64,000 bases of DNA, from NCBI GenBank assembly GCA_030645675.1, contig JAUSLQ010000207.1:1-64000 (forward strand). Reading direction: 5' to 3'. Shown in pieces: positions 28,132 to 51,758 of the stretch. A program made the position numbers and the translations under genes. The notes below the pieces were generated by a model. The model saw only the letters and a list, made by a program, of their open reading frames with translations, was not told where the DNA came from and did no database searches. Within the stretch, counting starts at the first letter, position 1. Every line of letters starts with the position of its first letter. Source of the stretch: Actinomycetota bacterium. GTDB taxonomy: Bacteria > Actinomycetota > Acidimicrobiia > Acidimicrobiales > Ilumatobacteraceae.

Positions 28132-29415
28132 TCAGATCCCTGCGGCAGGCTTGCCGTCGATCGAAACGATGACGCCGTCCTTGACAACCGCCGGCCAGTA
28201 GGTGCCGTTGTAGAGCGAGGTCAACGGTGCGTTACCAGGCGTCTGCGTCGAGTACGGCGGAGCCAGGTCGAGCAGGTCGATGCCGTCGGCGGCCCTCATC
28301 GCGGCGAGCACCGTGGTCGCCGTGATCTCCGACGGCTGAGCGGCTTCGACCGCACCCGCGAACAGTTGGACGGCGAGCCACGACCCGAGCGCATAGAAGT
28401 TCGGCGCCAACTCGTCGCCGACCTCGCTCACGAACTGCTCGATGCCAGGCCCACCGTCTGCGACGGGTCGGAGGTACGAGGCGACCTGGACACCCTCGGC
28501 AGCGTCGCCGATCGTGCCGATGACGTCGTCGGACAGTCCCGGCGCGCACTGGGGAAGGGTCACACCCTGCTGACCGGCAGCGATCAACCAACGGGCCGCC
28601 ATCTCGGGCTGCAGGACGAGCAGGATCGCATCCGCGTTGTCGGCGGCTGACGACACGAGCGGGTTGTAGTCCACTGCCTCCAGCGGCACGGGCACCGTCC
28701 CTTCGACGACCGCTTCTGTGCCCACCAGGGCCTGTTCGGCGAAGGTGGTCGCGAACGCGCCCGCCGGGAGGTCGAAGTAGACGACGGAGATCTTCTTCGC
28801 GCCTCCCGCGGCCAGCATCTTGGCGCAGCCTGCGATCCATGCCGGCGATCCGCCGATCGGGAACGAGTTGACGCCGAGGAAGTCCGTGACGCCGGCGGCG
28901 AAGCTACCGATGTTGGCCATGCCCTGCTCCTCGAGGACGGGGTTGATCGAGTCCGGGTTCGCGGAGGCGCCACCGACGACCGCCACTGCACCCTGCTCGG
29001 ACGCCTGTCGGGCACAGTCCGCTGCGCCGTTGGGGTCGGACCCGTCGTCGCAGACGATCACCTCGATCGGGCGGCCCATCACACCCCCGCGCTCGTTGAG
29101 GGCCGCCGCGGCCGCCGAAACGGCATCTGCCGCGGCCTGGGTGTTCGACTGCCCTGCCGACTCGGTCCGCACGATCGTCATGATCTTGATCGGCTCACCG
29201 CTCGCCGGCGCCACGGTCTCGGCAGGTGCGTCGGTCTCGGCGGGCGCGTCGGTCTCGGCGGGGGTGTCCGTCGCCGCTGGTGGCTCCGTCGCCGACGTTT
29301 CCTCCGCGCCCGTCGTTGACTGCGTCGACGAGCCGCTGTCGTCGTCGCTCGAGCAGGCGGCGAGGACGAGCGCCACCGCCACTGCAACAGATGTGAGCTT
29401 TCTCCGTGCTGTCAT
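28132..29415 (-). CDS. ABC transporter substrate-binding lipoprotein (Leu/Ile/Val type)
   Basis: Lipobox LAACSSDDDS, linker, IKIMTIVRTESAG; adjacent to liv genes. Confidence 0.85.
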   Translation of the reverse strand: MTARRKLTSVAVAVALVLAACSSDDDSGSSTQSTTGAEETSATEPPAATDTPAETDAPAETDAPAETVAPASGEPIKIMTIVRTESAGQSNTQAAADAVSAAAAALNERGGVMGRPIEVIVCDDGSDPNGAADCARQASEQGAVAVVGGASANPDSINPVLEEQGMANIGSFAAGVTDFLGVNSFPIGGSPAWIAGCAKMLAAGGAKKISVVYFDLPAGAFATTFAEQALVGTEAVVEGTVPVPLEAVDYNPLVSSAADNADAILLVLQPEMAARWLIAAGQQGVTLPQCAPGLSDDVIGTIGDAAEGVQVASYLRPVADGGPGIEQFVSEVGDELAPNFYALGSWLAVQLFAGAVEAAQPSEITATTVLAAMRAADGIDLLDLAPPYSTQTPGNAPLTSLYNGTYWPAVVKDGVIVSIDGKPAAGI

Positions 29416-30170
29416 TGTCTCCCCTGTTGGTCTGAGTCTGCGGTCGCAGACACACTTGTGCGCGTCGGGTCACCGGTCGAGGTGGTGGCGCCGAATGCGA
29501 GGTACAGCTCGGCGAGCGCCGTCGGGTTCGACCGCAGCTCGTCGGCGGAGCCGGAGAGCACGACGCGTCCGCGTACGAGGACCGAGACCCGGTCGACGAC
29601 GGACAACGCCTTGTCAACGTGCTGCTCCACGAGCAGCACGGCCACGCCCCTGTCAGCCGCGGCACGGACAGCGACCAGCAGCCGGTCGACGACGAGTGGT
29701 GCGAGCCCCAACGACAGCTCGTCGGCCAGCAGCACACGCGGACGGCGGGCGAGAGCGCGGGCGAGGGTGAGCATCTGCTGCTGGCCGCCCGACAGCAGGC
29801 CCGCTCGGCGCGCGAGGTGCGGGCCGAGCTCCGGAAAGAGCTCCAGCACGTCCCCGATCGACGCGCCGCCAGCCCGCAGGTTGTCCTTCACGGTCTGGCC
29901 CATGAACACGGATCGCTCCTCCGTGATGAGTGCCATGCCCTGACGGGCGCGACGGTGGAGGGGTGCCGTGGTCTCGCGGCCTGCCACCCGCACCGCGCCG
30001 CGGATCGCGCGCAGCTCACCTGCGAGAGTCAGCAGTGTCGTCGTCTTCCCTGCACCGTTCGGGCCGAGCAGCAGGTGCACCTCGCCGGGTTCGACGGCAA
30101 GGTGCAGGTCACGGACGATCGGCACGCCGGCATACCCGGCATCGACGCCGACGGCTTCGAGGGCGGTCAC
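29412..30170 (-). CDS. ABC transporter ATP-binding protein (LivF-like)
   Basis: LLGPNGAGKTTTLLTLAG, LSGGQQQMLTLARAL, LLADELSLGLAP. Confidence 0.9.
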   Translation of the reverse strand: MTALEAVGVDAGYAGVPIVRDLHLAVEPGEVHLLLGPNGAGKTTTLLTLAGELRAIRGAVRVAGRETTAPLHRRARQGMALITEERSVFMGQTVKDNLRAGGASIGDVLELFPELGPHLARRAGLLSGGQQQMLTLARALARRPRVLLADELSLGLAPLVVDRLLVAVRAAADRGVAVLLVEQHVDKALSVVDRVSVLVRGRVVLSGSADELRSNPTALAELYLAFGATTSTGDPTRTSVSATADSDQQGRQ

Positions 30171-32911
30171 AGCGGCACCTCGTCACGGGTGCATCCATCG
30201 GACGGCGCCACGAGGCTGCCATCTGCGCCCGACTCACCGGCGATCTCCTCCGGGTCGGCCAGCACTCCCAGATATGCAGCCATGACCGCGGGGTCACGCT
30301 GGATCTCCTGCGGGGTGCCGGACGCGATGGTCCGGCCGGCGTCGAGCACCGTGACGCGGTCGCAGATGCTCATCACCACCTCCATGTCGTGCTCGACCAA
30401 GAGGATCGCCAGCCCGGACTCGTCGGCGAGGCGGCGGATCAGCGTCGCGAGCTCCCGGCTCTCGACGTCGTCGAGCCCTGCAGCGGGCTCGTCGAGGAGG
30501 AGAACCGAGGGGGAGGTGCTCACGGCGCGGGCGATGGAGAGGAGCCGGCGCCGGCCGTACGGCAGGTCGGTGGGCAGGCGATCGAGGTCCGGTTCGAGCT
30601 CGAGGATGCGGACCGCTTGGGCCGCCTGCCCGTCCAGCACGCGGCGGGGGCACCAGAACGGATCGGAGAGCCACCGCCACTGCGAGCGACCGTCGGAGGC
30701 GGCGAGCAGGTTCTCGCGCACCGTCAGGTCGTCGAACAGCTCGAGCGACTGGAAGGTCCGGGTGATACCACCGCGCGCCCGTGCGGCCGGCGACATCCTC
30801 GTCAGGTCCTGGTCTCCGAGATGCATCGAGCCCGCGAACGGACGGCTGTAGCCGGTGATCGCGTCGATGAGGGTCGTCTTGCCGGCACCGTTCGGGCCGA
30901 TGAGGCCGACGACGTGACCGGGGGCGACCTCGAGGCTCACCTCGTCCAGGGCACTCACGCCGCCGAACCGCACGGTGACATCCCTGACCGCCAAGGTCCG
31001 TGGCGTACATCGCTGCCAGGTGCCGGGTTCGCCCGAACCGCCCAGACCCGCGGCGGCATGCCGCAACCGGCGGGTCATCCTCGCAGCCAGTGCAGCCGGG
31101 ACGCGTGCAAGTCCGTCCGGGGACCACATCAGCATCAGGACCAGGGCCGAGCTCGTGATCAGCGTTGCCCACTTGTTGAGATCGAGTGTGTGCTGCAACA
31201 GCTCCGTGACCAGCCCACCGGCGAGCAGCGCTCCTCCGATGAGCGCTCCCGTCACGAAGCCGGCGCCACCGAGCACGGTGAGCACGACGGCGTTCATCGA
31301 TGCGAAGACCCCGTATTGGTCGAATCGGACGTTCGGGAGTCGGAACGCGAGCAGCGCTCCTCCCGCTGCGGCGATGAATGAGCCGACGGCGAATGCGTAC
31401 ACCTTCGCCCCCATCACGCTGATGCCGAGCGAGGCAGCGGCGCGTTCGTTGGCCCGGGTGGCGAGCAGTCGCCGTCCCGACGGCGCCCCTCGGAGGTTCA
31501 CCACCCCGAGGGCGAGGAGCGAGAACACCACGAACACCACGACCGCGTAGCGGTTCGGGTGGGTGATCGAGAACACGCTCCAACCGAAGATCGTGGGCTC
31601 GTCGACGACGGTGCCCACGAAGCCGCCGGTCCAGTCCCGGTTGAACAGGATCAGCTGCTCGACGGCAAGCGCCAGACCGAGCGTGGAGATGGCGAGGAAG
31701 AGACCTCGGGTACGCAGGGCGGGCAGGGAGAACACGATCCCGACGGGCACCGCAACGACCATGCCGGCGAGCACGGCGACCGGGAAGGGCAGCCCGTGGG
31801 TGTCGGCCAACCGCGACGCCACGAACGCACCGAGGCCGGCGAGCGCGTACTGGCCGAGGCTCAGTTGGCCCGCGAGGCCGGTGACGACGACGATCGACAG
31901 GCACACGATCGCAGCGAGCAGGCTCGTCGTCGCCGCGATCGCGAGATCCTCCGACGCGAATCCCAGGCCGACGGCGCCGAGCACGACGAGCAGGACGCGC
32001 ACCCAACCCGCAGCGAGCGATCGGCCCACCATCGGCAGCTTCTCGATGATGTGGCCCCGGACCGGGAGCGACCGCCCACGAACGATGAGGACGGCCACGA
32101 TGACGAGGAAGGGGGCGGAGCGGGCCCACCCCTGCTTGGTCACGTAGTTGCCGAGGAGCGACTCTGCGATCCCCAGTCCGAGGCCACCCAGTAGGGTCAA
32201 CGGGAACGACGCGAAGCCGCCGACGAGTGCAGCGGCGAGCGCCGGGACGATGAGCAGCGTGAGGTTCCCCGGCAGTCCGGTGATCGGGACGATCAGCACG
32301 CCGGCGAGTGCGGCGAGCATCGCACCGAGCGCCCAGTTGGCCGTGGCGACGAGGTCCGGGGAGATCCCGAGGGCACCGGCGGCGCGCCGGTTCTCGGCAA
32401 CGGACGACGTCCAGATCCCGAAGGTGGTGAAGCGGTACGCAGCCCACAGGACCATCGCGAGCACGATCGAGATGCCGAGCAGCCAGATCCGGTCGGACGA
32501 CACGACGATCTCGTCCGTCAAGTTGACCGGCGTCGTCGGCAGGAACGAGGGGACCAATCGCATGTCGGTGCCGTAGCGCAGGATCGACGCCGATTGGATG
32601 ATGCCGAGCAGGCCGAGGGTTGCGACCACGCGGGCGAGTGGCGAGGACGTCCGCAGCGGTCGCATCACCACGAGGTGGATCGCTGCCCCGATCACCCCGG
32701 TGATCAGGATGGAGACCATCGCTGCGGGAAGGGCGCTCATGCCCCCGTCGCGCAGCTCGCCGAAGGTGGAGCCGGCGAACAGGGCGAGGGCTCCCTGGGC
32801 GAAGTTCAAGATCCCCGAGCCCCGGTAGATGAGGACCAGGCCCTGGGCGGCGATGGCGTAGATCGCTCCCACGCCGATACCGAGCACGGCGAAGCGCAGC
32901 ACGTCCTGCAT
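30167..32911 (-). CDS. ABC transporter permease-permease-ATPase triple fusion (LivH-LivM-LivG)
   Basis: LivH-like N-terminus (AVLGIGVGAIYAIAAQGLVLIYRGSGILNFAQG), LivM-like middle (IVVVTGLAGQLSLGQYALAGLGAFVA), ABC ATPase C-terminus (GPNGAGKTTLIDAITGYSRP..LLLDEPAAGLD); 914 aa in one frame. Confidence 0.9.
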   Translation of the reverse strand: MQDVLRFAVLGIGVGAIYAIAAQGLVLIYRGSGILNFAQGALALFAGSTFGELRDGGMSALPAAMVSILITGVIGAAIHLVVMRPLRTSSPLARVVATLGLLGIIQSASILRYGTDMRLVPSFLPTTPVNLTDEIVVSSDRIWLLGISIVLAMVLWAAYRFTTFGIWTSSVAENRRAAGALGISPDLVATANWALGAMLAALAGVLIVPITGLPGNLTLLIVPALAAALVGGFASFPLTLLGGLGLGIAESLLGNYVTKQGWARSAPFLVIVAVLIVRGRSLPVRGHIIEKLPMVGRSLAAGWVRVLLVVLGAVGLGFASEDLAIAATTSLLAAIVCLSIVVVTGLAGQLSLGQYALAGLGAFVASRLADTHGLPFPVAVLAGMVVAVPVGIVFSLPALRTRGLFLAISTLGLALAVEQLILFNRDWTGGFVGTVVDEPTIFGWSVFSITHPNRYAVVVFVVFSLLALGVVNLRGAPSGRRLLATRANERAAASLGISVMGAKVYAFAVGSFIAAAGGALLAFRLPNVRFDQYGVFASMNAVVLTVLGGAGFVTGALIGGALLAGGLVTELLQHTLDLNKWATLITSSALVLMLMWSPDGLARVPAALAARMTRRLRHAAAGLGGSGEPGTWQRCTPRTLAVRDVTVRFGGVSALDEVSLEVAPGHVVGLIGPNGAGKTTLIDAITGYSRPFAGSMHLGDQDLTRMSPAARARGGITRTFQSLELFDDLTVRENLLAASDGRSQWRWLSDPFWCPRRVLDGQAAQAVRILELEPDLDRLPTDLPYGRRRLLSIARAVSTSPSVLLLDEPAAGLDDVESRELATLIRRLADESGLAILLVEHDMEVVMSICDRVTVLDAGRTIASGTPQEIQRDPAVMAAYLGVLADPEEIAGESGADGSLVAPSDGCTRDEVPL

Positions 32912-32920
32912 CGACTGACC

Positions 32921-33097
32921 TCAGCGCCCGGCCGGGAGGTGCAGATCAGCAGCGGAATGCCACGAGCGCGTCGGCACCTCGCGGTAGAGCCCCGGCGCCT
33001 CGAGGAGCCGGTCGAACTGCCGCTGCCCCTTCAGGTCCACCTCGGCGAGCGCGGCGTCGAAGCGCGCCGGCGGATCGTTCGAATCGATGCTCCCCAT
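32921..33097 (-). CDS. Small ORF (58 aa) heading the transporter operon
   Basis: MGSIDSNDPPARFDAALAEVDLKGQRQFDRLLEAPGLYREVPTRSWHSAADLHLPAGR*; absent from the ORF track (<60 aa); stop 9 nt before LivHMG start; promoter-like motif 34 nt upstream. Confidence 0.5.
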   Translation of the reverse strand: MGSIDSNDPPARFDAALAEVDLKGQRQFDRLLEAPGLYREVPTRSWHSAADLHLPAGR

Positions 33098-33130: not shown

Positions 33131-33162
33131 CTAATGGCACACTATACGAGACTTATGTGACA
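33131..33162. promoter_or_regulatory. Putative promoter/operator, copy A
   Basis: CTAATGGCACACTATACGAGACTTATGTGACA; matches copy B at 47484 at 25 of 29 positions. Confidence 0.7.
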
Positions 33163-33285: not shown

Positions 33286-34077
33286 TCACGTCGAGCGACT
33301 TCCCGCCCGAGTGTCGTCTGAGTAGCCCAGCTCGGCAGAGATCGTCGACGAGGCGGCAAGGAGGAGGTCGATGATCTGGAGGCGGTCGTCGCCGCCGATG
33401 CTCTTGTGCGGAGTGACGACACCGATCACGAGTGACACGTTCCCGAACGCGTCGAAGACGGGGGCAGCGAAGCCCTCGATCCCAAGCACGGGCGTGTTGG
33501 ACACGACACAGACCCGCCGTTCGCGGATGGTCGCCAACTCGTCGGCGAGGGTGTCGTAACCGACGTCCTCCGGCACACCACCGCCGCGCTGGGCCAGGAG
33601 CACCGGCTCGGTCACGTCGCGCGGGAGAAACGCGAGGAACACCCGACCGACCGACGACCACAGCGGGAGCGAGCCACCCACCCGCACGGTGACGCTCATC
33701 GGGTGACGTCCGATCTCCCATCGGATCAGCACCGGGCCGGCCTCGCCCCAGGCGGCCAGGTTCACCGAGTGGCCGGAGCGGTCGCGCAGATCGGCGATGT
33801 GGGGGCCGGCGATGTTGGCCTCGTCGGTGCGGCGGAACGCCTCGGCACCGAGCCGACGGGCAGCCGGACCGAGGTCGTAGAGGCCCGTCGCTGCCGACTG
33901 GACCACCACACCGACGCGGCACAGGCTGACGAGGTAACGGTGGACCTTGCTGGCCGGCATGCCGGCGAGGCCGGCTATCTTGGAGAGCGACGCCGCTCCG
34001 CCGCAGGCCTCGAGGGCCTCGAGGACCGCCATCGCGATCTCGACCGACTGGATCCCGCGACGCTGAGGTTCGACCAT
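33286..34077 (-). CDS. IclR-family transcriptional regulator
   Basis: VEIAMAVLEALEACGGAASLSKIAGLAGMPASKVHRYLVSLCRVGVV HTH plus IclR effector domain; alternative start 34086. Confidence 0.85.
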   Translation of the reverse strand: MVEPQRRGIQSVEIAMAVLEALEACGGAASLSKIAGLAGMPASKVHRYLVSLCRVGVVVQSAATGLYDLGPAARRLGAEAFRRTDEANIAGPHIADLRDRSGHSVNLAAWGEAGPVLIRWEIGRHPMSVTVRVGGSLPLWSSVGRVFLAFLPRDVTEPVLLAQRGGGVPEDVGYDTLADELATIRERRVCVVSNTPVLGIEGFAAPVFDAFGNVSLVIGVVTPHKSIGGDDRLQIIDLLLAASSTISAELGYSDDTRAGSRST

Positions 34078-34126
34078 ACGGCCCATTGTGGCCGCCCCGG
34101 CCGACGTCGCGCCGCTCACCGGCGAG

Positions 34127-36106
34127 CTACCCGTCCAGTTCGGCGCGACTGCGCCACTCCGCCGCGGCAGCGGCGATCGAAATGACCGCTCCGGGGTCGT
34201 CAACAGCGCTCGTGTCGAGGACCTCGTCCACTGCCGAGCCGGCGAACAGGCGCTGGACGGGGATCTCGAGGCGCTTGCCGGTCAGGGTGTGAGGCAGGCG
34301 GTCGACCACGATGACGTGATCCGGGTTGTGGCGGGGGCTGAGCGACGAGCGCAGTCGGGTGCGGATCCGCACCTCCAACCCCTCGATGTCGTGACCTGGA
34401 GAGGGCTGGACGAGGACGATCAGCTCGCCGCGTGGCCTGGCCGCGCTCGTCGTGTCGATCACGAGTGAGTCGGCAACCTCGGGCATGGTGTCCATGACCC
34501 CGTAGAAGTCCGAGGTGCCCATGCGGACACCGCCCCGGTTGAGGGTCGCATCCGAGCGGCCATACACGACGCTCGAGCCGTCGGCGTCGAAGCGGATCCA
34601 GTCACCGTGCCGCCATACACCCGGATACATCTCGAAGTAGGTGCTGCGGTACCTGGCGTCACCCGGGTCGTCCCAGAACTTCACCGGCATCGACGGCATC
34701 GGCTGGCGGACGACCAGCTCGCCGGTGTCTCCGACGATGGGCTGCCCGCCGGGGTCGAAGGACGTCACGTCGACCCCGAGGCACGGCGCCTGCATGGCGC
34801 CCGCCTTCACCGGCAGCCAGGAGGTGGCGCCGACGAACGCGCTCACGACGTCGGTGCCGCCGCAGATCGGAGCGATGAAGAGGTCTGGCCCGAACTGGTC
34901 AGCCAGCCATCCGTACCCGCTCACCGGCAAGGGCGATCCGGAGGAGACCACCGTTCGGAGCCGGGAGAGGTCACGGTCGCGGCACGGTTGGTGCCCGTCG
35001 CGGAGGGCGTTCTGGATGAACCCGGCGCTCAGACCGAGGACCGAGGCCTTCGAGTCGGCGGCGATGTCCCACAGCCGCTCCGGAGACGGGTACGTCGGGC
35101 TGCCGTCGTAGATGACGATGGAGGCCCCGACGAGGAGGCCTCCGACGAGGATGTTCCACACGACCCAGGCGGTGCTGCTCCACCAGAAGAAGCGGTCATC
35201 CGGTGTCATGCCGAGCTGCAGCCGATGGAGCTTGTGGTGCTCGAGCATCACGCCACCGTGGCCGTGGACCATCGACTTCGGACGCCCGGTCGTGCCCGAC
35301 GTGTAGACGATCCAGAGCGGATGGTCGAACGGCACCGGCGTCGGTGAGAGCGGCTCGTCGGTCGGCGCGAGGAGATCCGACCACGCAAGGGCGCCTGGGA
35401 TCTCCTCGCCACCCGGGATCTGGACGACGTGCTGCACGGTGACCAGGTCGGCGTGGAGCTGACGGACCACGTCGCTGCGGTCGTGCCAGACCCCGTGGTA
35501 GCGATACCCGGAGACGGCCAGCAGCACCGTGGGTGTCACCTGGCCCAGGCGGTCGAGCACGCTGCGCTCGCCGAACTCGGGAGGTGTGACCGTCCAGATC
35601 GCTCCGAGCGACGCCGTGGCGAGGAAGGCGACGAGGGTCTCGATCCGGTTCGGGAGGTAGGCCGCGACACGGTCGCCGACACCGACACCGAGCCGGCGCA
35701 ACCCGCCTGCGGCGCGCCGCACCTGGTCGGCGAGATCGTCCCACGAGACGCTGGTCCGATCGAGCTCGGTGTGGACCTCGACGGCGATCTCCGGGCCGCG
35801 CCGCCGCAGAGCCATGTCGACGTAGTTGAGGGTGCCCCCCGGAAACCAGGTCGCGCCAGGCATCGATGCGTCGACGAGGGCCGCGCCCGGCTCGCTGTGC
35901 CAGGCCACGCGGGCGTCCCGAGCCACAGCGGACCAGAACCCGCCGAGGTCGCGGACGGACCAGCGCCAGAGCGCGCCGTAGTCGCCGACGGCGACACCCG
36001 CGGCACCCGGCAGGAAGCGGGCGAACTCCGCCAGCGGAGAGGCCTCGACCGCGGCCGGCCGCGGCGACCACACGACATCGCCCTCTTGGAGCGGGCGCGG
36101 CGACAT
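34127..36106 (-). CDS. Acetoacetate-CoA ligase (acetoacetyl-CoA synthetase)
   Basis: 659 aa; LWIVYTSGTTGRPKSMVHGHGG AMP-binding motif, N-terminal NYVDMAL, FFWWSSTAWVVWN. Confidence 0.85.
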   Translation of the reverse strand: MSPRPLQEGDVVWSPRPAAVEASPLAEFARFLPGAAGVAVGDYGALWRWSVRDLGGFWSAVARDARVAWHSEPGAALVDASMPGATWFPGGTLNYVDMALRRRGPEIAVEVHTELDRTSVSWDDLADQVRRAAGGLRRLGVGVGDRVAAYLPNRIETLVAFLATASLGAIWTVTPPEFGERSVLDRLGQVTPTVLLAVSGYRYHGVWHDRSDVVRQLHADLVTVQHVVQIPGGEEIPGALAWSDLLAPTDEPLSPTPVPFDHPLWIVYTSGTTGRPKSMVHGHGGVMLEHHKLHRLQLGMTPDDRFFWWSSTAWVVWNILVGGLLVGASIVIYDGSPTYPSPERLWDIAADSKASVLGLSAGFIQNALRDGHQPCRDRDLSRLRTVVSSGSPLPVSGYGWLADQFGPDLFIAPICGGTDVVSAFVGATSWLPVKAGAMQAPCLGVDVTSFDPGGQPIVGDTGELVVRQPMPSMPVKFWDDPGDARYRSTYFEMYPGVWRHGDWIRFDADGSSVVYGRSDATLNRGGVRMGTSDFYGVMDTMPEVADSLVIDTTSAARPRGELIVLVQPSPGHDIEGLEVRIRTRLRSSLSPRHNPDHVIVVDRLPHTLTGKRLEIPVQRLFAGSAVDEVLDTSAVDDPGAVISIAAAAAEWRSRAELDG

Positions 36107-36944: not shown

Positions 36945-37047
36945 GGAATCCCCCGATCCTCGGCCATGGCGCTCGCGATTCGAGCCCCATGGTGAATGCC
37001 TCGGTCAATGTACGACCGCCCATCGCCAGATTCAAGGAGAAATTCAC

Positions 37048-37071
37048 CATTGGCACTTGATTCGCCCAATG
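37048..37071. promoter_or_regulatory. Inverted repeat CATTGG-N12-CCAATG in a divergent intergenic region
   Basis: cattggcacttgattcgcccaatg between divergent FAH and VOC genes. Confidence 0.5.
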
Positions 37072-37118
37072 CAGAATCGTAGGGTCTGCGTCTGGGGTAC
37101 ACCGAGGGGGTCCTGCCC

Positions 37119-38027
37119 ATGCCGCTTCACCGTCTGTCCGCCGTCCACGTCCGCGTGGCGCGCTACGCCGAGTTCTGCGACTTCTACCGACGCTTCGGGT
37201 TGGAGGAGATCGCATCAGGGCGCTTCGCGTCGGCGCGTGGCGGCCAGCAGCTCCATGTCGAACCCGGCGACCGGAACACCGTCGTGGAGATCGTCATCGG
37301 CGCCGACGCTCCGTCGGATCTGGACGCCGTGGAGGCCGGGCTGCAGGCCGCAGGCCACACGCCCGAGCGCCCCAGTTCAGAGACCCTGCTCGTGGCCGAG
37401 CCCACGACCGGCATCACCATCAGGGTGACGGTCGAGCCACGCGTGCCGGCCATCAGGCCGCGGGGTGGGATCCCGGAGGTGAACCGCGCCGAGCTGGTGG
37501 GCCGGGCCCGGGTGCGGCCGCAACGGCTGGGCCACATGGTGCTGGGCTGCCCAGACGTCGATGCGGTGAACCGCTTCTTCACCGAGTGCCTCGGGATGCG
37601 GATCAGCGACGAGGTGATCGGCGCCGTGTTCCTCCGGTTCGACACCGACCACCACAACCTCGCGTTCCTCCGCAGCGATCACACGTGGCTGCACCACATG
37701 GCGTGGAAGGTGGGCAGCGTCGACGAGGTGGGGTACGGCGCGATGCAGCTGATCGACCACGACCAGTCCACGAACTGCTACGGGCTCGGCCGGCACGCGG
37801 CCAGCGCCAACTACTTCTGGTACCTGCGCGACCCGTCGGGAAGTCTCGCCGAGTACTACCACTCGGAGTTCGACGACCTCGTCGACGACGCTGAGTTCTG
37901 GAACCCTGTCCCCAACCAGGCGCCGATGCCCGTGGCGTCGTGGGGCCCGAGCCTGCCCCCGACGTTCTTCGCCCCCACCGGCCAGCTGTCGGCAGGCGCC
38001 ACACAACCAGGAGAGGAGGGGCCGTGA
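37119..38027 (+). CDS. VOC family protein / extradiol dioxygenase-like (two VOC modules)
   Basis: HRLSAVHVRVARYAEFCDFYRRFGLEE and RLGHMVLGCPDVDAVNRFFTECLGMRISD...NLAFLRSDHTWLHHMAWKV...YYHSEFD. Confidence 0.8.
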   Translation: MPLHRLSAVHVRVARYAEFCDFYRRFGLEEIASGRFASARGGQQLHVEPGDRNTVVEIVIGADAPSDLDAVEAGLQAAGHTPERPSSETLLVAEPTTGITIRVTVEPRVPAIRPRGGIPEVNRAELVGRARVRPQRLGHMVLGCPDVDAVNRFFTECLGMRISDEVIGAVFLRFDTDHHNLAFLRSDHTWLHHMAWKVGSVDEVGYGAMQLIDHDQSTNCYGLGRHAASANYFWYLRDPSGSLAEYYHSEFDDLVDDAEFWNPVPNQAPMPVASWGPSLPPTFFAPTGQLSAGATQPGEEGP

Positions 38028-39337
38028 CGATCGACCACTCGACGGAGGCGACGAACCTCACCGTCAGACGGACCGGGCGCATGGTCCACGACGTACCGGA
38101 GACCGGCGAGTTCATGGTGCACCGCAGCGCGTTCACCGACGGCGCCGTGCTGGAACGCGAGCGCCGGAACATCCTCTCGCGGTGCTGGGTGTACGTCGGC
38201 CACGCGTCCGAGATCCCGAACGTCGGCGACTACCGGACACGCTCGGTCGTCGGGCGCCAGGTGATCTTCTGCCGCGACCGCAACGACGAGGTCCGCGTGC
38301 TGCTCAACACCTGTCGCCACAGAGGAGCGCTCGTCTGTCGCGAGCCGCAAGGCAACGACACCACGTTCACGTGCTTCTACCACAAGTGGCAGTACCGCAA
38401 CTCGGGTGAGCTGATCGGCGTCCCGGGCAAGATCTCCTTCCCCGAGTCGTTCACCCTCGCCGACAACGGACTGGCCTCTGCGTCGCAGGTCGAGACCTAC
38501 AGGGACTTCGTCTTCGCCAGCTTCGACTCTTCCGCGCCTCCGCTGGTCGAGTACCTCGCCGGCGCCGCCGACTTCATCGACCGGATCGCCGACCAGGGCT
38601 TCCGCGACGGCATGGAGATCGTCGACGGAGCTCATCTGTACAGCATGCGCTGCAACTGGAAGCTCGTCGTCGAGAACTCGATCGACGGTTACCACGGCTT
38701 CCCGGTGCACTCCACGTACTTCCAGTACATCGGATCGCGCGGCGTCGACCTCTCCGTCGGCCTCGACGGAGTGCCGCGCGACCTGGGCAACGGGCACGCG
38801 TGCCTCGACTACCTCGCGCCGTTCGCCCGCACCGTCGCCCGCACCACGGCGCCGATGAGCGACCGCGCCAAGCAGCTCATCACCGACATCCGCGCCGAGG
38901 CCGACGCAGCGCTGGGTGAAGAGCGGGCGGCGCTCGTGGCCGACCGCTCCAAGAACATCTTCGTCTACCCCAACCTCTTGATCATCGATGCTGCATCCCT
39001 GCAGATCCGCGTCCTCGACCCGGTCGCCACGGACTACACGAACATCAGCGCCTGGCTCCTCGCCCCGCGCGGCGAGGATCGTGAGCTCCGCCAGATCAGG
39101 AGCGACTCGTACCAGGAGTTCCTCGGCCCGGGTGGCTTCGCCACCCCAGACGACTGCGAGGCACTGGAGACGTGCCAGATCGGCTACCAGAACATCGCCG
39201 AGGTCGAGTGGAACCTCGTCAACAAGGGTTATGGCGTCGACGCTCCCGAAGCGGTCGACAACGAGACGCAGATCAGGGCGTTCTGGCGGCAGTGGGACAG
39301 CGACATGGCCGGCGGCCCGGATGGAGGAACACGATGA
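38024..39337 (+). CDS. Rieske aromatic ring-hydroxylating dioxygenase, alpha subunit
   Basis: GTG start overlapping upstream TGA; Rieske CRHRGALVCREPQGNDTTFTCFYHKW; ENSIDGYHGFPVH iron-site region. Confidence 0.9.
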   Translation: MTIDHSTEATNLTVRRTGRMVHDVPETGEFMVHRSAFTDGAVLERERRNILSRCWVYVGHASEIPNVGDYRTRSVVGRQVIFCRDRNDEVRVLLNTCRHRGALVCREPQGNDTTFTCFYHKWQYRNSGELIGVPGKISFPESFTLADNGLASASQVETYRDFVFASFDSSAPPLVEYLAGAADFIDRIADQGFRDGMEIVDGAHLYSMRCNWKLVVENSIDGYHGFPVHSTYFQYIGSRGVDLSVGLDGVPRDLGNGHACLDYLAPFARTVARTTAPMSDRAKQLITDIRAEADAALGEERAALVADRSKNIFVYPNLLIIDAASLQIRVLDPVATDYTNISAWLLAPRGEDRELRQIRSDSYQEFLGPGGFATPDDCEALETCQIGYQNIAEVEWNLVNKGYGVDAPEAVDNETQIRAFWRQWDSDMAGGPDGGTR

Positions 39338-39846
39338 CCAGCACCGTGACGGACGCACTCCTGCTGCGACTACGCATCGAGGATTTCCTCTTCACGGAGG
39401 CCGAGCTCCTCGACGCCTGGAAGCTCGACGAGTGGCTCGCACTGTTCGAACCGGACGGGCGCTACTTCGTGCCGCCGACCGACAGGCCCGATGCGCGCGA
39501 CACCATCGCCACTGCGTTCATCATCGCCGACGACCACGAGCGCCTCACGGGGCGCGTCCGCCGGCTCGCCACGGACGCAGCGTGGGTGGAGCGCCCGCGA
39601 TCGCGCACGCACCGGGTGGTCGGGAACGTCCGCGTGGAGAGCGGCACGGATTCCGTAGGCGACGACGTCGTTGCCCGCTCGAGCTTCATCGTCCACCGCG
39701 TCCGCCGTGGCGTGACCGACTGCTTCACGGGCCGCTACGAGCACCGGCTGCGCGTCGTCGGCGACTCGTTCCGGATCCGGGAGCGATGGGCCGTCCTCAC
39801 GGCAGAGGCACTCCAGCCCACCGGCAAGATCGGATTCATCCTGTGA
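39334..39846 (+). CDS. Aromatic ring-hydroxylating dioxygenase, beta subunit
   Basis: IEDFLFTEAELLDAWKLDEWLALFEPDGRYFVP; 4-nt overlap after alpha subunit. Confidence 0.88.
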   Translation: MTSTVTDALLLRLRIEDFLFTEAELLDAWKLDEWLALFEPDGRYFVPPTDRPDARDTIATAFIIADDHERLTGRVRRLATDAAWVERPRSRTHRVVGNVRVESGTDSVGDDVVARSSFIVHRVRRGVTDCFTGRYEHRLRVVGDSFRIRERWAVLTAEALQPTGKIGFIL

Positions 39847-40586
39847 GCACCGACACTCCCGTGGCCATCGTCACCGGCGCCGGATCCGGCATCGGCGCCG
39901 CCATCTCCCGGCGACTCGCCGCGGACGGCTACCACATGGTCCTGTCCGACCTCGACGACTCGCGGCTCGCACCCGTCGCTGCGTCGATCCCCGGCAGCGT
40001 CGTCCACCTCGGCGACCTCAGCCGCGCCGGCACGGGTGACGCTCTGGTCGCGGTGGCCGTCCAGGCCTGGGGCCGGCTGGACGTGCTCGTCAACAACGCC
40101 GGCGGCGGCGTGATCCTGCCGACGCTGCAGCACACCGAGGAGACGCTCCAGGCCACCATCGACCGGAACCTGTGGACCACGATCCGCTGCACGCTCGCCG
40201 CGATCCCCGTGATGCAGGCGGCCGGATACGGTAGGGTGGTGAACATCGGCGCCGACTCGGTGAAGAGCGGGGTACCCGCGCACGCGATGTACAACGCGGC
40301 CAAGGGCGGTGTGCACGCCATGGTGGGCGGGCTCGCCCGCGAGTTCGCCCGCGACGGCATCACGTTCAACGTGGTGGCCCCCTGCATGGTGCTCACCGAC
40401 GAGGTCCAGGTGATGTGGGACGAGAAACCAGCGTTCATGCAGCCGTTCCTCGACGTCATCCCCGTCGGTCGCCCCGCCAAGATGGAGGAGGTGGCTTCCG
40501 CCGTGGCCTACCTCGCGTCGGCGGAAGCAGCGTTCATCACCGGCCAGGTCATCGGAGTCAACGGTGGCTCCAACTTCCTCGGGTGA
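39843..40586 (+). CDS. SDR family oxidoreductase
   Basis: GTG start 39843; [32 protein letters not shown]. Confidence 0.88.
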
Positions 40587-40590
40587 CGCC

Positions 40591-41397
40591 ATGAGCAACG
40601 CATCCGAGCCGCGATACTCGGCATTCCCCGACCTCACCCTCGACCGACCCGCCGACGGTGTCCTGCGCCTGACGCTCGACGCGCCTGGCCTCAATGCCGT
40701 CACGCCCGCGGTGCACCAGCAGTTCGCGGACATCTGGCCCGTGATCGACAGGGACGACTCCGTGCGGTGCGTGCTGCTGCGCGGCGCCGGTCGGGCGTTC
40801 TCCGCCGGTGGCAGCTTCGAGCTGATCGACAGGGTCATCAACAGTGACGAGGGCCGGCTGCGAACGATGCGCGAGGCACGCGACATGGTCACGAACCTCG
40901 TGAACTGCTCGAAGCCGATCGTCGCTGCGATCCATGGCGTCGCCGTCGGTGCCGGACTCGTCGCGGCGATGCTCGCCGACATCACGGTCGCCGCGAGGAC
41001 GACGCGCATCATCGACGGTCACACCCGGCTCGGCGTGGCGGCCGGCGACCACGCCGCCCTGTGCTGGCCCTTGCTGTGCGGGATGGCGAAGGCGAAGTAC
41101 TACCTCCTCACGTGCGACGAGCTGTCAGGCGAAGAGGCAGAGCGGATCGGGCTGATCTCGATCTGCGTGCCCGACGGCGAGGAGCAGGACCGTGCCATGG
41201 CCATCGCCGTCCAGCTTGCGGCCGGCTCCCAGATGGCGATCCGCCTCACCAAGCACACCTTGAACCACTGGTACCGGGCACAGATGCCGATCTTCGATGC
41301 CAGCCTCGCCTACGAGATGCTCGGGTTCACAGGGGCCGATGCCCGCGAGGGCCTCGCCAGCCACCTCGAGAAACGCCCGCCGAACTTCTCGCGCTGA
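40591..41397 (+). CDS. Enoyl-CoA hydratase/isomerase family protein
   Basis: [35 protein letters not shown]. Confidence 0.88.
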
Positions 41398-43410: not shown

Positions 43411-44661
43411 TCACCCTGCGGTGACGGGAGCCTGTTGGGGTTGCACGTGCTTGGGGTTGAAGACCGCTTCGACGTCGGAGACATCGGCGGCCAGGCCCAA
43501 CGCCGGGCCGCCGCTGGCAAACGACTCCACGGCGTCCAGCAGCGCCTTGCGTCCGCGGTGCACGACGATGTCGGTGGCACCGAGGCTCTCGTCTGTACGG
43601 TCGAGCCAGCCCTGGCCCTCCGCGATCGCGATGTCCTCCATCAGGATCGTCAGGGCACCGCGCCCCGTCGCGATCCCGGTGAACGTCTCGCCGGCTTCCT
43701 GGGCAGCCCGGTCCTGCAGCCACTTGTTCTCGGGCGTGTACTCGGAGCGGAAGTTGTTCAGGTCGGGGAACATCCCGAACGTCTTGCGGCCGAAGCCGTC
43801 GGGCTTCATCGGCACGTTGCGGTTGTACATCAGCTGCCAGAACAGCGTGTGGTCGTCGTCGATCGGCACATGGATCTGAACCGCCTTGTCGTCCATCGGG
43901 TCAGGGCTGACCGTGTGGTGCACGTACCACGGCATGATCCACGCGTAGTTGAGCTCCTTCATCTCGTCCGACGACTGGTAGCGAAGGCCCCACTCCGTGC
44001 TCTCCACGCTGAGGTCGGGGAAGTCGTAGAGCATCTTGCTGTTCGGACGCTCCTTGTCGGAGAAGTAGTTGGCGAGTCGCTGCGTGCCGGCGAACGTCTG
44101 CCTGTTCGTGCGGTTGTGCAGGATCTGAGCGTGGAACGTGTCCCACAGACCCTCGAGCATCTGCACCCAGTTGGCACGGACGATGCCCGTCGCGTGCACG
44201 ATCCCGTCGTCGCCGAGACCCGAGAAGGCGAACTGCGGCCGAGCAGGCGGCTCACCGTCACCGATCCACACCCAGACCATGCCGCCGTCCTCGTAGCAGT
44301 GCCGGGCACCGCTGGGCAGCTTGTCGAGCCGCGCCGTTGCCGGGTGGGTCGGCGCCTCGAGCAGGTGGCCGTCGGCGGAGAAGAGCCAGCCGTGGTAGAT
44401 GCAGCGGATGCAATCGGCCTCGACGATCCCCTGCGCCATCGAGGCGCCCCGGTGCGGGCAGGCCTCGTCCATGATGCCGAGCGCGCCGTCCGCGCCTCGC
44501 CAGGCGACGAAGCTCTGGCCGAGCACACGGAACCGGACAGGTGATCGTCCGGGCTCGACCCGGGCGGAGCGCAACGCAGGGATCCAGTACTGCCGCAGCA
44601 GCTCCCCCGTCGGCGTTCCCTTGCCGACGCGCATGATCGTTTCGTTCTCGAGCTCGTTCAC
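43411..44661 (-). CDS. Rieske oxygenase, phthalate-4,5-dioxygenase/VanA-like alpha subunit
   Basis: CPHRGASMAQGIVEADCIRCIYHGW; NRTNRQTFAGTQRLANYF; 416 aa. Confidence 0.88.
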   Translation of the reverse strand: MNELENETIMRVGKGTPTGELLRQYWIPALRSARVEPGRSPVRFRVLGQSFVAWRGADGALGIMDEACPHRGASMAQGIVEADCIRCIYHGWLFSADGHLLEAPTHPATARLDKLPSGARHCYEDGGMVWVWIGDGEPPARPQFAFSGLGDDGIVHATGIVRANWVQMLEGLWDTFHAQILHNRTNRQTFAGTQRLANYFSDKERPNSKMLYDFPDLSVESTEWGLRYQSSDEMKELNYAWIMPWYVHHTVSPDPMDDKAVQIHVPIDDDHTLFWQLMYNRNVPMKPDGFGRKTFGMFPDLNNFRSEYTPENKWLQDRAAQEAGETFTGIATGRGALTILMEDIAIAEGQGWLDRTDESLGATDIVVHRGRKALLDAVESFASGGPALGLAADVSDVEAVFNPKHVQPQQAPVTAG

Positions 44662-44674
44662 AGGTCCCCCGGGG

Positions 44675-45229
44675 TCACAGGTAGACGGCGAGGTTCGACA
44701 CGCCGAGCGCCGTCTGGTCGAAGTAGATGGTCCGCGAGGCCAGCCTGAAGCCGCTGTCGGCCCTGCGCAGGCAGTCGACCCGACGGCCCGACAGGAGGTC
44801 GTAGTGGGTGTCGTCGTAGCGAGACCTCAGCAGGAGGATGCTGCTGTCGACCCGGTACTCACCGTCGACGTCGGTCTCGTGGACGCGGACGTTGCTGACG
44901 ATGCGACGGGTTCGCGAGGCCGGGTTCTCGGCCCACGCACTCGAGGTCTGGGTGAGGCGCATGACCTTCAGGAAGATCGTCATCGCGTTCTCCTCGAAGT
45001 GGGCGGCTTCCTCGTCGAACGGAGAGCCGGAACCACGCTCGGTGAAGCAGCGGATCGGAGCCCGGTACACGAGGTCCTCGGCGAGCAGCTGGATCCAGCC
45101 CATCAGGTCGTCCTCGTCGAGCAGCTGGGCCTCGTCCTCGAGGTGCTCGACGATGTCGCCGTGGAGCGGCTCGGACGCACGGACGCGTCGTCCGGTCGCC
45201 TCCTTGTAGGGCGTGTCAGCAGTCGGCAT
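44675..45229 (-). CDS. Aromatic ring-hydroxylating dioxygenase, beta subunit
   Basis: 184 aa; DDLMGWIQLLAEDLVYRAPI...TRRIVSNVRVHETDVDGEYRVDSSILLLRSR. Confidence 0.82.
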   Translation of the reverse strand: MPTADTPYKEATGRRVRASEPLHGDIVEHLEDEAQLLDEDDLMGWIQLLAEDLVYRAPIRCFTERGSGSPFDEEAAHFEENAMTIFLKVMRLTQTSSAWAENPASRTRRIVSNVRVHETDVDGEYRVDSSILLLRSRYDDTHYDLLSGRRVDCLRRADSGFRLASRTIYFDQTALGVSNLAVYL

Positions 45230-46644
45230 CAGAGCCTCCCCGTCAGGTGACCCAGGTACTCGGTCCAGAAGGCCCATTGGGTGTTGTCCTTCGGGAATCC
45301 GTCGTAGATGTCGCCGGGCCCCGGCCATCCCTCGGGCTTCCCCTCCGGCGTGATGGTCTGGTAGCGGAGCTTCTGCCGGCGTCCGAGGGCACCGCGGGCC
45401 GACTTCTGCTGCAGCGGCCAGATGTCGCTGTCGTCGGACTCGACGAAGCCGCTGACGCCGAACGTCGCCGCGGTGAACATGCGGACGTTCTCGCGGAGCT
45501 CGGGCGACGAGTCGCGCTCGGCGACGGTCCAGGACATCACTTCGAAGCGGTCCGGTCCCTTTGGCACCCAGGTGCGCCACGAGATGAACGCGCCGAGCGT
45601 GCCATCCGGCAACGGCTGGTGCATCACGATGCCGCCGATGTTCGGGAAGAACGAACCGACCTGGGGCGGGCGCTTCGCCAGCATCTCCACCTGCTCCGGC
45701 GAGAACTTCTGGACGATCTGGTCGACCATGTCGACCGACATGCCGGGCGGTGGCTGCATGCGCAGACGCTCGACGGCGCTGAGGCTCTTCAGATCCCGGC
45801 CCTTCAGGGCATTGAGGTAGTGCTCCTCCTCCACGTCGAAGCAGCGCACGAACGAGCCGCGGTGCGCAGCGCTCGTCCCCGCCATCGCCGGCTCCTGCAC
45901 CGGCCCGTCCGTCGACAGCATCCCGAGCTCCTGCATCGACTTGTGCAGGCTCAGGGTGTGGAAGATGTCGCCGGCGAACTGCTCGCCGGCCGTCTTCCAG
46001 TTGGCACGGATCGTGAAGCGCTGGGGTGGGCCGATCACCGTCATGCCCGCACTCGTGCGGTCGAACATGAGGTCCCAGTACCAGGTCATCGGTCCGAGGG
46101 TGTCCCGCAGCGACGGGGCGTCCAGATCGAAGTTCACGAAGATCATTCCGGCGTACTGCTCCACGCGCGCTGACTGCAGACTGAGCTCTTCTTTCGAGCG
46201 GAGCTCGCCGTGCATCTTCTCGCGGGCGATCGGCGCGCCGAGGAAGCGACCGTCGGGTCGGAAGGCCCACGCGTGGTACGGACAGGTGAACCTGAGCGCG
46301 TTGCCCTTCTCGTAGCGGCACAGGCGCGCACCGCGGTGGGTGCAGACGTTGAGCGCCGCCGTGATCGAGCCGTCCTCGGCGCGCGAAACGACGATCTCGT
46401 CCTCGCCGACGTAGCGGAGGACGTAGTCACCGGGCAGGCGGATCTCGTCCTCGTGGGCGACGATGTTCCACGTGCGAGGAAAGAGGCGATCCAGCTCGAG
46501 CTGATAGATCTCCGGGTCGCTCAACACGCGCATCGACACCTCGCGGTAGTCGAGGTCGAAGAGCTCGTCGAGGAAGACCCCGTCAGCGAGCACCGGCGAC
46601 GACGCCAACGGCACGTCCTTCAACGGCACGTCCTTCAACGGCAC
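45229..46644 (-). CDS. Rieske aromatic ring-hydroxylating dioxygenase, alpha subunit
   Basis: CTHRGARLCRYEKGNALRFTCPYHAW Rieske motif; 471 aa. Confidence 0.88.
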   Translation of the reverse strand: MPLKDVPLKDVPLASSPVLADGVFLDELFDLDYREVSMRVLSDPEIYQLELDRLFPRTWNIVAHEDEIRLPGDYVLRYVGEDEIVVSRAEDGSITAALNVCTHRGARLCRYEKGNALRFTCPYHAWAFRPDGRFLGAPIAREKMHGELRSKEELSLQSARVEQYAGMIFVNFDLDAPSLRDTLGPMTWYWDLMFDRTSAGMTVIGPPQRFTIRANWKTAGEQFAGDIFHTLSLHKSMQELGMLSTDGPVQEPAMAGTSAAHRGSFVRCFDVEEEHYLNALKGRDLKSLSAVERLRMQPPPGMSVDMVDQIVQKFSPEQVEMLAKRPPQVGSFFPNIGGIVMHQPLPDGTLGAFISWRTWVPKGPDRFEVMSWTVAERDSSPELRENVRMFTAATFGVSGFVESDDSDIWPLQQKSARGALGRRQKLRYQTITPEGKPEGWPGPGDIYDGFPKDNTQWAFWTEYLGHLTGRL

Positions 46645-46647: not shown

Positions 46648-47448
46648 TCAGCCCTCGAACACAGAGAGGTCGGGTGGGCGGGTGTTGAGCCGCGGCACGT
46701 GGAGGCCACCGTCGACCGGGATGGTCGCCCCAGTGATGTAGCGGGAGCCCTCTCCGGCGAGGAACACGGCGACGGGCGCGATGTCCTCCTCGGGGTCGCC
46801 CATGCGGCCGATGGGGATCATCATCGGGATGGCTTGGAGGATGCCCGGGTTGACCTCCACCATCTTCTGGAAGGCGGCCGACGCTGCGATCGGTGAGATC
46901 GCGTTGACCAGGATCCCGTGCGGGGCCCACTGGATGCCGGCGGTGCGGGTGAGGGCGCCGACCCCCGCCTTCACTGCGTTGTAGTCGCCGTGCAGCCAGT
47001 TCCCGTTGTCGGCGTCGACGGAGTAGAAGTTGATGATGCGGCCGCCACCCTGGGCCTTCATCGGCTCGAGGACGGCCTGCATCGCCCACCACACCGACCA
47101 CAGGCCGACGCCGAGCGTCAGCGCCAGCATCTCGTCGGTCTTCATGTGGAGGGGCACCTCGGGGGTGACCGTGATGGCGTTGTTCACCAGCACGTCGATG
47201 CGGCCGTAGCGCTCGAGCGTCGTCGACACCATGCGCAGGACGTCGTCCTTCTTGCTGACGTCGGTCTGCAGGAACAACCCCGGCGCTCCGAGCTCGGCGA
47301 GCTCGTCGGCGACGCGCTGGCCCGCCTCTGCGTTGAGTTCTGCGACCACCACCGTCGCACCCTCACGCGCATACCGACGGGCGATCCCCCGACCGATGCC
47401 GTCACCGCCGCCGGTGACGATCGCCACCATGCCGTCCATCTGCCCCAT
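46648..47448 (-). CDS. SDR family oxidoreductase
   Basis: AIVTGGGDGIGRGIARRYA, NNAITV, YNAVKAGVGALTR; 266 aa. Confidence 0.88.
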   Translation of the reverse strand: MGQMDGMVAIVTGGGDGIGRGIARRYAREGATVVVAELNAEAGQRVADELAELGAPGLFLQTDVSKKDDVLRMVSTTLERYGRIDVLVNNAITVTPEVPLHMKTDEMLALTLGVGLWSVWWAMQAVLEPMKAQGGGRIINFYSVDADNGNWLHGDYNAVKAGVGALTRTAGIQWAPHGILVNAISPIAASAAFQKMVEVNPGILQAIPMMIPIGRMGDPEEDIAPVAVFLAGEGSRYITGATIPVDGGLHVPRLNTRPPDLSVFEG

Positions 47449-47483: not shown

Positions 47484-47514
47484 CTAATGTCACACTATGC
47501 GAGACTAGTGTGTC
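47484..47514. promoter_or_regulatory. Putative promoter/operator, copy B
   Basis: CTAATGTCACACTATGCGAGACTAGTGTGTC containing perfect CACACTA-N8-TAGTGTG; divergent SDR/TetR intergenic region. Confidence 0.72.
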
Positions 47515-47571: not shown

Positions 47572-48147
47572 GTGGCCCCACCCTTGAACAACCGCGCTGA
47601 GAGCATTCTCGAGGCAGCACTGCGGACGCTCGCACGACAGGGTGCCGACAACTTTTCGATCGTGAACATCGCCCGCGAGGCACACGTCTCGCGCCGCACG
47701 ATCTACCGCTACTACAGCAGCACCGCTGACGTCCTCGCCGGGGTGGCCGCGTACGTCGGCGGCAGCTTCGCTCGGGCGATCGAGGAGGCGGTGAGCGCCA
47801 CACCCGACCTCGACCGGCGCTTCGAGGTCGTGATGACAGCCACCATGCGCTACGGCGACTACCAGCCGGCGGCAATCGCCGTCATGCGCATGGAGCCTGC
47901 ATTCACCATCGAGTTCCTCTCGAACACGATCGGCGACTACGTCGAGGTGGTTCGCGCCGCGATCGCGCCCGTGATCGGCAGCGTGCCCGCCGTGACGGAG
48001 GGTCGCATCTCGGAGGAGCAACTCGCCGAGCTGATCATCCGCATCGGGATCTCCGGCTTCCTGATCCCGTCGCCGGTGCTCGACACCATGCCGGCGGCGA
48101 TGGCGAGCCTGATGGCCGGACCCAAGCCACGTCGCCGTCGCGCTTGA
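47572..48147 (+). CDS. TetR-family transcriptional regulator
   Basis: LEAALRTLARQGADNFSIVNIAREAHVSRRTIYRYYSSTADVL. Confidence 0.85.
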   Translation: MAPPLNNRAESILEAALRTLARQGADNFSIVNIAREAHVSRRTIYRYYSSTADVLAGVAAYVGGSFARAIEEAVSATPDLDRRFEVVMTATMRYGDYQPAAIAVMRMEPAFTIEFLSNTIGDYVEVVRAAIAPVIGSVPAVTEGRISEEQLAELIIRIGISGFLIPSPVLDTMPAAMASLMAGPKPRRRRA

Positions 48148-48300: not shown

Positions 48301-48497
48301 GCCATGACGACCTTCGGCCCTATCGAGGCCTTCCGTCCGGTGCCGTGGATTATCGGTAACGGTCCTTCCCTACAGGTCCGATGCGACTCGGCAAGCGCCG
48401 GGGCGGGAGAGTCATCAGAGAACGGCGGCTCTCGAAAAGGGTTCGAACGCCAACGCGGGTCCATCTCGCATGGATCCCCCCGGTGAAGGAGAGAGAC

Positions 48498-51400: not shown

Positions 51401-51758
51401 GCTGACACCGGTCAGGTTGGCCGACACCCGCGCCGGTTGGGTTGCTGCCGATGGTGAGTTCACCGGCACCGGCCCGGTCGTGGGTGGCCAGGTGATAGAG
51501 GTTCAGATCGCCGGGCGCGGAGGTGTCCCCGATGATGCCGAAGCGGTGATGATGAACCTCACCATCGCCGGTGCGACTGGGGCAGGGTACGCAACGGCGT
51601 ATGCCTGCGGCATCCAGCCGCCGACGTCGAGCATCAACCTCCTCGCCGGTCACAGCATCGCCAACGAGTTGATGGTCGGTCTGTCGCCCACCGGGACCGT
51701 GTGCGTATACGTGCACACCACTGCCGAGGTGATCATCGACGTCGTCGGCTACTGGTAG
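48498..51758 (+). CDS. Secreted multidomain protein with Gly linker, Ig/sortilin-like repeats and two C-terminal PVRLADTR-type domains
   Basis: Signal peptide MRRVTRSGGFFSLLATFFLMVTVPMVAA; GGGGGGGGGG linker; duplicated TPVRLADTRAGWVAADGEFTGTGPV...VYVHTTAEVIIDVVGY modules; SD GAAGGAGAG. Confidence 0.8.
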   Translation: MRRVTRSGGFFSLLATFFLMVTVPMVAAVPDDGEGSGTGDVFADLIVVLRDEDGVPLLRQFVVPSDVSPGLTEEMYCVQPMSTTSIPAVLPVENPADGRQVYLIPLMGDPGAPPPPEGEEVEVCDPQPSYAMYVQEAELERLNMARQPDEVKDRKLSDVMVKLLTADEVTLDGAGRITVDGVPIDASPEHAAIYLSLMSSGSIPGLGVEPAAISPLDAWMLAAASVGTASGKETPITIDSVQYYNRIVGVVDEYVEVPGVWTVDFLRTTPPGGEQFVDFGDFSYSRSDVFQGCATWLDVPSLTWQVSPVAELAQFSDLPPIAEGGTVANVAGFAQMADDVREVILLLHDHEVIPGFFIDPVGQNTCAEQTAALSEPAVSLGVVPIDIIQTDVVPVTTSLYMPWAGTTVDAAQLRLTVDAVDAFSAGTQISAVATDLSGAMEFVVDVDGNLVGTWGPVDGFAVTPGYHLDTTFDLSIADGAPLGSYTLTLEMIDLDASDPSVEVLASEMTSTMVHDAALTVLWTSMIEYAAQGTYQPITARVFNPDLGQPELIGTSLRVTVDAPEAFLLDTQVSAWSETVEMQFTLEADGDLVGAWALPDPLSVPYDHLITWYLNVAEGAPTGVYQVMIEVVDGGGAILSGPAVDEFIIVAAPAHGGGGGGGGGGEEPALPPVASIIESPPVVTNSTSATFVFEANQPEAEFGCSLDGAVATLCSSPVTSENLTDGSHLFAVYATTDQVGPTAVASWIVDTVAPIVSLTTVPDAATTELDATFDFIVDGAVTTLCSLDGAVLAACTSPADYSDLDLGSHSFVVAAVDNAGNHASVSHRWTIHTAPQDIPSVIPMTPVRLADTRAGWVAADGEFTGTGPVASGSRIRVQIAGRAGIPSDAEAVMMNLTIAGATGAGYATAYACGIQPPTSSINYVAGHSIANEVMVDLSWAGGVCVYVHTTAEVIIDVVGYAPPSLDYSVLTPVRLADTRAGWVAADGEFTGTGPVVGGQVIEVQIAGRGGVPDDAEAVMMNLTIAGATGAGYATAYACGIQPPTSSINLLAGHSIANELMVGLSPTGTVCVYVHTTAEVIIDVVGYW
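51031..51755 (+). repeat. Two tandem direct repeats, 378-bp period (126 aa), in a secreted protein
   Basis: cggtcagg...gtcgtcggctac copies start at 51031 and 51409; a stretch of about 100 bp (tgccgaagcggtgatgatgaacctc...ccgacgtcgagcatcaac) is identical. Confidence 0.9.

Follow-up and report, generated by a model that had tools for sequence, protein, structure and literature searches.

A Putative TetR Operator Shared by an Importer Operon and a Rieske Oxygenase Operon in an Uncultured Actinobacterium

Introduction

Why should the upstream regions of a Liv-type importer operon and of a Rieske oxygenase operon carry almost the same stretch of DNA? The question is raised by a 64-kb stretch of actinobacterial DNA (64,000 nucleotides, referred to here as the window), in which a near-identical element, CTAATGnCACACTATnCGAGACTnnTGTG, lies at positions 33131-33159 (site A) and 47484-47512 (site B). 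An earlier note on this DNA took the two copies for a shared promoter and operator module and proposed the adjoining TetR-family protein as their likely common regulator. From sequence comparison, the element is best read as the operator of the cluster's own TetR repressor, placed over two promoters such that uptake through LivHMG/F/K would be coupled to ring oxidation, a reading to which we assign a probability of roughly 0.7.

Position, Identity and Uniqueness of the Two Sites

Site A, CTAATGgCACACTATaCGAGACTtaTGTG (equivalent to CTAATGGCACACTATACGAGACTTATGTG), is an operator-like element upstream of orf58-LivHMG-LivF-LivK, and site B, CTAATGtCACACTATgCGAGACTagTGTG (equivalent to CTAATGTCACACTATGCGAGACTAGTGTG), lies between an SDR gene and a divergent TetR gene; neither is assigned to a strand. 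Comparison within the window gave 25 identical letters out of 29, in agreement with the coordinates and identity first put forward, and the placement of both copies just upstream of minus-strand start codons was likewise borne out, the distance being 33 nt from the start of site A to the ATG at 33097 and 35 nt from that of site B to the ATG at 47448. According to a self-comparison of the full window, no strong direct repeat other than A and B has two intergenic copies; the remaining 29-mers agreeing at 25 or more of 29 letters belong to apparently coding sequence or to a tandem repeat (about 51.0-51.7 kb). Shuffled DNA yielded an expectation of 0 matches to the A/B pattern, a figure to be read as a floor because the pattern was picked after the pair had been seen.

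The genome-wide motif scan for which the earlier note had called, with many unrelated matches to count against its proposal, returned two places only. The metagenome-assembled genome (MAG) comprises 4.09 Mb in 296 contigs and is about 80% complete, the uniqueness counts referring to that part; even with up to three mismatches allowed, the core matches it at A and B alone. The downstream part ATAGTGTGnCATTAG is unique to the same two places, and ATAGTGTGNCATTAG, searched with up to two mismatches, found no further match in the MAG. The core pattern had 0 matches in 14 congeners, while across the class 32 of 395 genomes matched, the organism's own included, all others with at least two mismatches and at about chance level. 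Two of these class-wide matches, one inside a 619-aa ORF (L038) and one between unrelated genes (L040), were judged to be due to chance. Being absent elsewhere in the MAG and in the congeners, against a chance-like background in the class, the element is no common core promoter, and no dispersed repeat either.

Dyad Symmetry and Promoter-Like Hexamers

Site B contains the perfect palindrome CACACTA-N8-TAGTGTG (47491-47512, no strand assigned) that had been reported beside the divergent TetR gene, and this is the sole 7-bp dyad of its intergenic region; the inner form ACACTA-N8-TAGTGT occurs exactly only once in the MAG, at site B. The corresponding dyad of site A, CACACTA-N8-TTATGTG (33138-33159, no strand assigned), matches the B palindrome in 12 of 14 positions, with the left half-site and the centre kept and the right half drifted to TTATGTG (5/7), and departs from ACACTA-N8-TAGTGT by two mismatches. 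A scan of the 64-kb window found the dyad at 10/12 or better in no other region. Three further palindromes with two mismatches elsewhere in the MAG (C21, C102, C159) are GC-rich variants with no obvious link and were set aside. The non-palindromic centre ATACGAG is common to site A and to a mycobacterial dyad (L075, 2432-2457) despite differing spacing, which may be chance.

On the minus strand, site A reads TTG-N15-TATAGT (TTG at 33167-33165, -10-like hexamer at 33141-33146, ahead of LivHMG) and site B TTG-N16-CATAGT (TTG at 47521-47519, hexamer at 47494-47499, ahead of SDR/Rieske), both hexamers being weak predictions, and the dyad covers the -10 and spacer region in each case. The suggestion of a promoter overlapped by the operator, written TTGnnn-N15/16-(T/C)ATAGT, thus holds as a pattern of letters, but its promoter half fared less well: with a sigma-70-type criterion of -35 and -10 hexamers at 16-18 nt spacing, no site was called at A or B, the hexamers falling below threshold. 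As the generic scan calls neither, both promoters are putative. The identity between A and B extends to asymmetric bases outside the half-sites (CTAATG, CGAGAC), including the -10-like hexamer and the initiation region, and because of this extension one promoter segment probably arose by copying of the other; this may be how the importer promoter came into the regulon.

Gene Environment

The order of features around site A is IclR gene, site A, 58-aa ORF, LivH-LivM-LivG fusion, LivF and periplasmic binding protein, all genes being on the minus strand. The IclR-family regulator (33286-34203, start uncertain) lies immediately upstream of the site. The 58-aa ORF (32921-33097), between site A and livH, had no homolog in 80 relatives; its GC3 is coding-like, and it may not be a gene. 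LivH, LivM and LivG are fused in a single 914-aa ORF (30167-32911) with two BPD_transp_2 permease domains and an ABC ATPase, followed by a LivF-type ATPase (29412-30170) and a periplasmic substrate-binding protein (Peripla_BP_6, 28132-29415).

Site B separates the minus-strand SDR-Rieske operon from the plus-strand TetR gene. The operon begins with an SDR-family dehydrogenase (46648-47448), 67-71% identical to mycobacterial homologs, and continues with the alpha subunit of a Rieske ring-hydroxylating oxygenase (45229-46644; homolog of the alpha subunit in Pseudomonas abietaniphila L086, 44%), the beta subunit (44675-45232, start approximate) and a second, LigXa-like Rieske oxygenase (43411-44661). 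A second Rieske operon in the opposite orientation (37119-41397) encodes a VOC dioxygenase-like protein, alpha and beta subunits, an SDR and an enoyl-CoA hydratase-like protein; the TetR-type site is absent from it and from the divergent region 36945-37118. That divergent region, between an FAA hydrolase gene and the plus-strand Rieske operon, harbors the dyad CATTGG-N12-CCAATG (37048-37071), a candidate for another IclR site, and the FAA hydrolase gene is closely preceded by the dyad CCATGGCGCTCGcgattCGAGCcCCATGG (36964-36992; 11 pairs, 1 mismatch), possibly an IclR operator or an RNA hairpin. Farther along, a long near-identical direct repeat with a 378-bp period (51025-51736) occupies the terminal part of a 1125-aa ORF (48381-51758) that has no Pfam match.

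The TetR Regulator and Its Linkage to Rieske Loci

The proposed repressor of A and B (47572-48147, plus strand) carries a TetR_N helix-turn-helix domain scoring 46.2 bits against a Pfam cut-off of 24. A contig scan with this protein alone gave no matches, and loci were collected with a Rieske-alpha alignment instead; when 61 relatives and 397 genomes of the phylum were searched for TetR, only unlinked TetRs of low identity came up. Among 26 loci with close homologs of the Rieske alpha subunit, 18 have a TetR homolog near SDR/Rieske-alpha, compared with 5 of 53 control loci with more distant Rieske oxygenases, and the loci are of similar size, the DNA searched amounting to about 0.51 and 0.98 Mb. 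The TetR-linked close loci belong to Mycobacterium, Nocardia, Pseudomonadota and Verrucomicrobiota. A maximum-likelihood tree unites the window TetR with every one of the 23 linked TetRs and places outside this group 32 of the 33 unlinked ones drawn from relatives of the window organism; branch support for the group is moderate (70/65), and the window protein shares only 27-36% identity with the linked TetRs. Its recognition helix, VSRRTIYRYY, aligns with VSRGTLYRYF of the latter.

Dyads in Homologous Clusters

Operators in homologous clusters were sought independently of the window motif, by palindrome search and promoter alignments, and dyads of the form ACAC(T/A)...(A/T)GTGT were found in the promoters. 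In two mycobacterial clusters, the palindrome search picked out AGACACATAGAATGGATTGTGTCT ahead of TetR and TGAACACATAATACGAGTTGTGTTCA ahead of an enzyme gene, both at conserved positions. Pelomonas has a perfect ACACTATCGTCGATAGTGT (ACACTA-N7-TAGTGT) just above the alpha gene, and aligned promoters of the Pseudomonas/Pelomonas type revealed TGTACA...AAAGTGTCTTATATT above alpha, with TGAACACTATA-N4-AAAATGTTCA above SDR in Pseudomonas. The spacing of the ACACTA half-sites varies by lineage from 6 to 8 bp. None of the 53 control alpha upstream regions scored 10/12 or more. Counted over whole loci without restriction, 10/12 dyads showed no excess over block-shuffled DNA, for which reason only promoter-restricted comparisons were used, the signal being limited to promoters; in many alphaproteobacterial homologs, consensus scores were no better than chance or shuffles. 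Beside the ACAC/TGT dyad, the Pseudomonas alpha promoters (L084, L087 and L098, at about 9880-9920) also contain a longer second palindrome, AGAATTCACTTAC...GTGAATTCT, which may belong to another regulator.

A half-site matrix was built from 16 proteobacterial sites only and scanned over the window at total lengths of 24-26. Of about 64,000 positions, B ranked 4th and A 5th, which amounts to one strong coincidence, not two, because A and B resemble each other, and the test was not fully blind because the window motif was already known when the training sites were drawn from the alignments. All three matches ranked above them are coding, one in a GNAT-like ORF (54571-54930), one in the FAA hydrolase gene and one in that of the LigXa-type Rieske oxygenase. 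Taken together, the cross-genome comparison of dyads and TetRs is suggestive of a shared operator, and the TetR protein, predicted early on as the likely common regulator, gains backing from linkage, the TetR tree, the dyads of homologous clusters and the proteobacterial matrix.

Discussion

In the preferred reading, two head-to-head ACACTA half-sites would lie over the -10 and spacer region of two promoters on the minus strand. As long as substrate is absent, a TetR dimer would occupy both sites and keep the SDR-Rieske and LivHMG/F/K operons off; a pathway substrate or intermediate would then release TetR, such that uptake and ring oxidation start together. TetR binding, repression as opposed to activation, and the role of the inducer are steps that we infer. 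The arrangement has the marks of a local TetR catabolic regulon: the regulator gene is divergent from its target operon, one operator is present in more than one cluster promoter and rare elsewhere (A and B only), and linkage and operator are kept in homologous clusters, more weakly in several Alphaproteobacteria. Several observations weigh against a TetR operator: the window TetR is distant from the linked ones in a group of moderate support, half-site spacing changes from lineage to lineage, many alphaproteobacterial homologs score at chance level, the scan did not recognise the promoter hexamers, a symmetric operator alone leaves the conserved asymmetric bases unexplained, and site A is a degraded dyad.

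The last point might mean that TetR control is confined to site B (SDR/Rieske, perhaps with its own gene), with A a decayed copy of little function. The drifted right half-site and the 12/14 match of A are what such decay would leave; on the other hand, the independent matrix places A next to B, its left half-site, centre and flank are intact, and the operon downstream serves uptake, a fitting function, so that this explanation appears unlikely.

The sites might also be bound by the IclR protein encoded beside site A, with TetR acting elsewhere. IclR proteins are frequent controllers of aromatic catabolism, the Pseudomonas homologous clusters also contain an IclR gene, and some homologous dyads have outer half-sites, TGAACA/TGTTCA, reminiscent of the group 2 half-sites of the family (PMC8222616). 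IclR motifs follow TGRAACA-N1-2-TGTTYCA or GKTYCRY-W3-4-RYGRAMC (PMC8222616), however, and A and B, with CACACTA arms 8 bp apart, match neither. Furthermore, most homologous loci with dyads lack an IclR gene: the flanks examined of the Mycobacterium, Nocardia, Pelomonas, Massilia and plasmid loci, several of which carry dyads, gave no IclR homolog. The dyads at 36964-36992 and 37048-37071 could suit the IclR protein instead. IclR is thus a weaker candidate than TetR for A and B, and its binding there is improbable.

A third possibility, that A and B are simply a core promoter shared through a copied segment and devoid of a dedicated operator, would account for identity over asymmetric bases including the -10-like hexamer and initiation region, and for the equal distance of both sites from the start codon. 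It has difficulty with the perfect 7-bp-arm palindrome of B and with the recurrence of similar dyads in homologous clusters, and a general core promoter would be expected to recur in the genome, which A/B does not. A common core promoter was rejected on the ground that core and downstream part match the MAG only at A and B, and a copied segment devoid of an operator is improbable. That the likeness is due to chance or to a mobile-repeat remnant, as the mere two copies and a pattern partly chosen after being seen could suggest, is largely excluded by the 0 matches in shuffles, the standing of A/B as the sole strong repeat pair in the window's intergenic DNA, the matching promoter positions with cross-lineage support, and the lack of the further copies in the MAG that a mobile repeat would lead one to expect.

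Co-control of uptake and oxygenase by one TetR protein is a sensible, ordinary kind of gene control. Its interest lies in a concrete candidate regulator-operator pair for a catabolic cluster of an uncultured actinobacterium, in the tie between an importer of unassigned substrate and a ring-oxidation pathway, and in an operator model, ACACTA-N6-8-TAGTGT, for the TetR group accompanying homologous Rieske clusters in other phyla. More tentatively, with the odds slightly against it, one may picture this TetR subfamily and its ACACTA-type operator as having travelled with SDR-Rieske clusters through both Actinomycetota and Pseudomonadota (and, as far as linkage of TetR is concerned, Verrucomicrobiota), the regulon having been extended here, by copying of the promoter/operator, to the fused LivHMG importer.

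Comparison with Known Systems

No description of the A/B operator was found in the literature. The closest relatives of the operon are those of Mycolicibacterium vulneris (L074) and a Mycobacterium MAG (L075), with SDR 67-71% and alpha 61-62% identical. Both share with the window a linked TetR (33-36%) and conserved ACAC...GTGT dyads but differ in operator spacing and flanks, and have no Liv importer in the flanks examined.

The P. abietaniphila locus L086, which its strain name suggests to be the published dit diterpenoid (resin acid) cluster, resembles the window in its homologous Rieske alpha (44%), linked TetR, and ACAC/TGT dyads above alpha and SDR. As to a DitA type, the comparison concerns the alpha subunit, 44-45% identical between the window and Pseudomonas homologs. 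At the related Pseudomonas locus L083, genes for an FAA hydrolase, an IclR protein, an extradiol dioxygenase and a thiolase are present in addition, and an MFS gene stands in place of the window's Liv-type ABC importer. For the diterpenoid-type clusters of Pseudomonas, the linked TetR would be a candidate regulator. P. abietaniphila is known for its DitA diterpenoid dioxygenase (PMC6891630).

The layout is also reminiscent of EdcR of Caenibius tardaugens, an estrogen-dependent repressor of the TetR family (PMC8700777), which is likewise encoded inside a catabolic cluster and has its palindrome over the -10 box in several cluster promoters, with a less conserved copy upstream of the separately transcribed edcT. 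Operator (TnnCnnTACnAnTnGTAnnGnnA), organism and substrate (estradiol) differ from the window, and the likeness concerns the layout as described. PheR of Sphingobium sp. SHPJ-2, from a system of phenanthrene uptake and catabolism (PMC13273656), is discussed as an IclR-family protein with the operator core GCAACG, and differs in both from the window TetR; as in the arrangement proposed here, one local repressor joins substrate uptake to the initial dioxygenase of an aromatic pathway.
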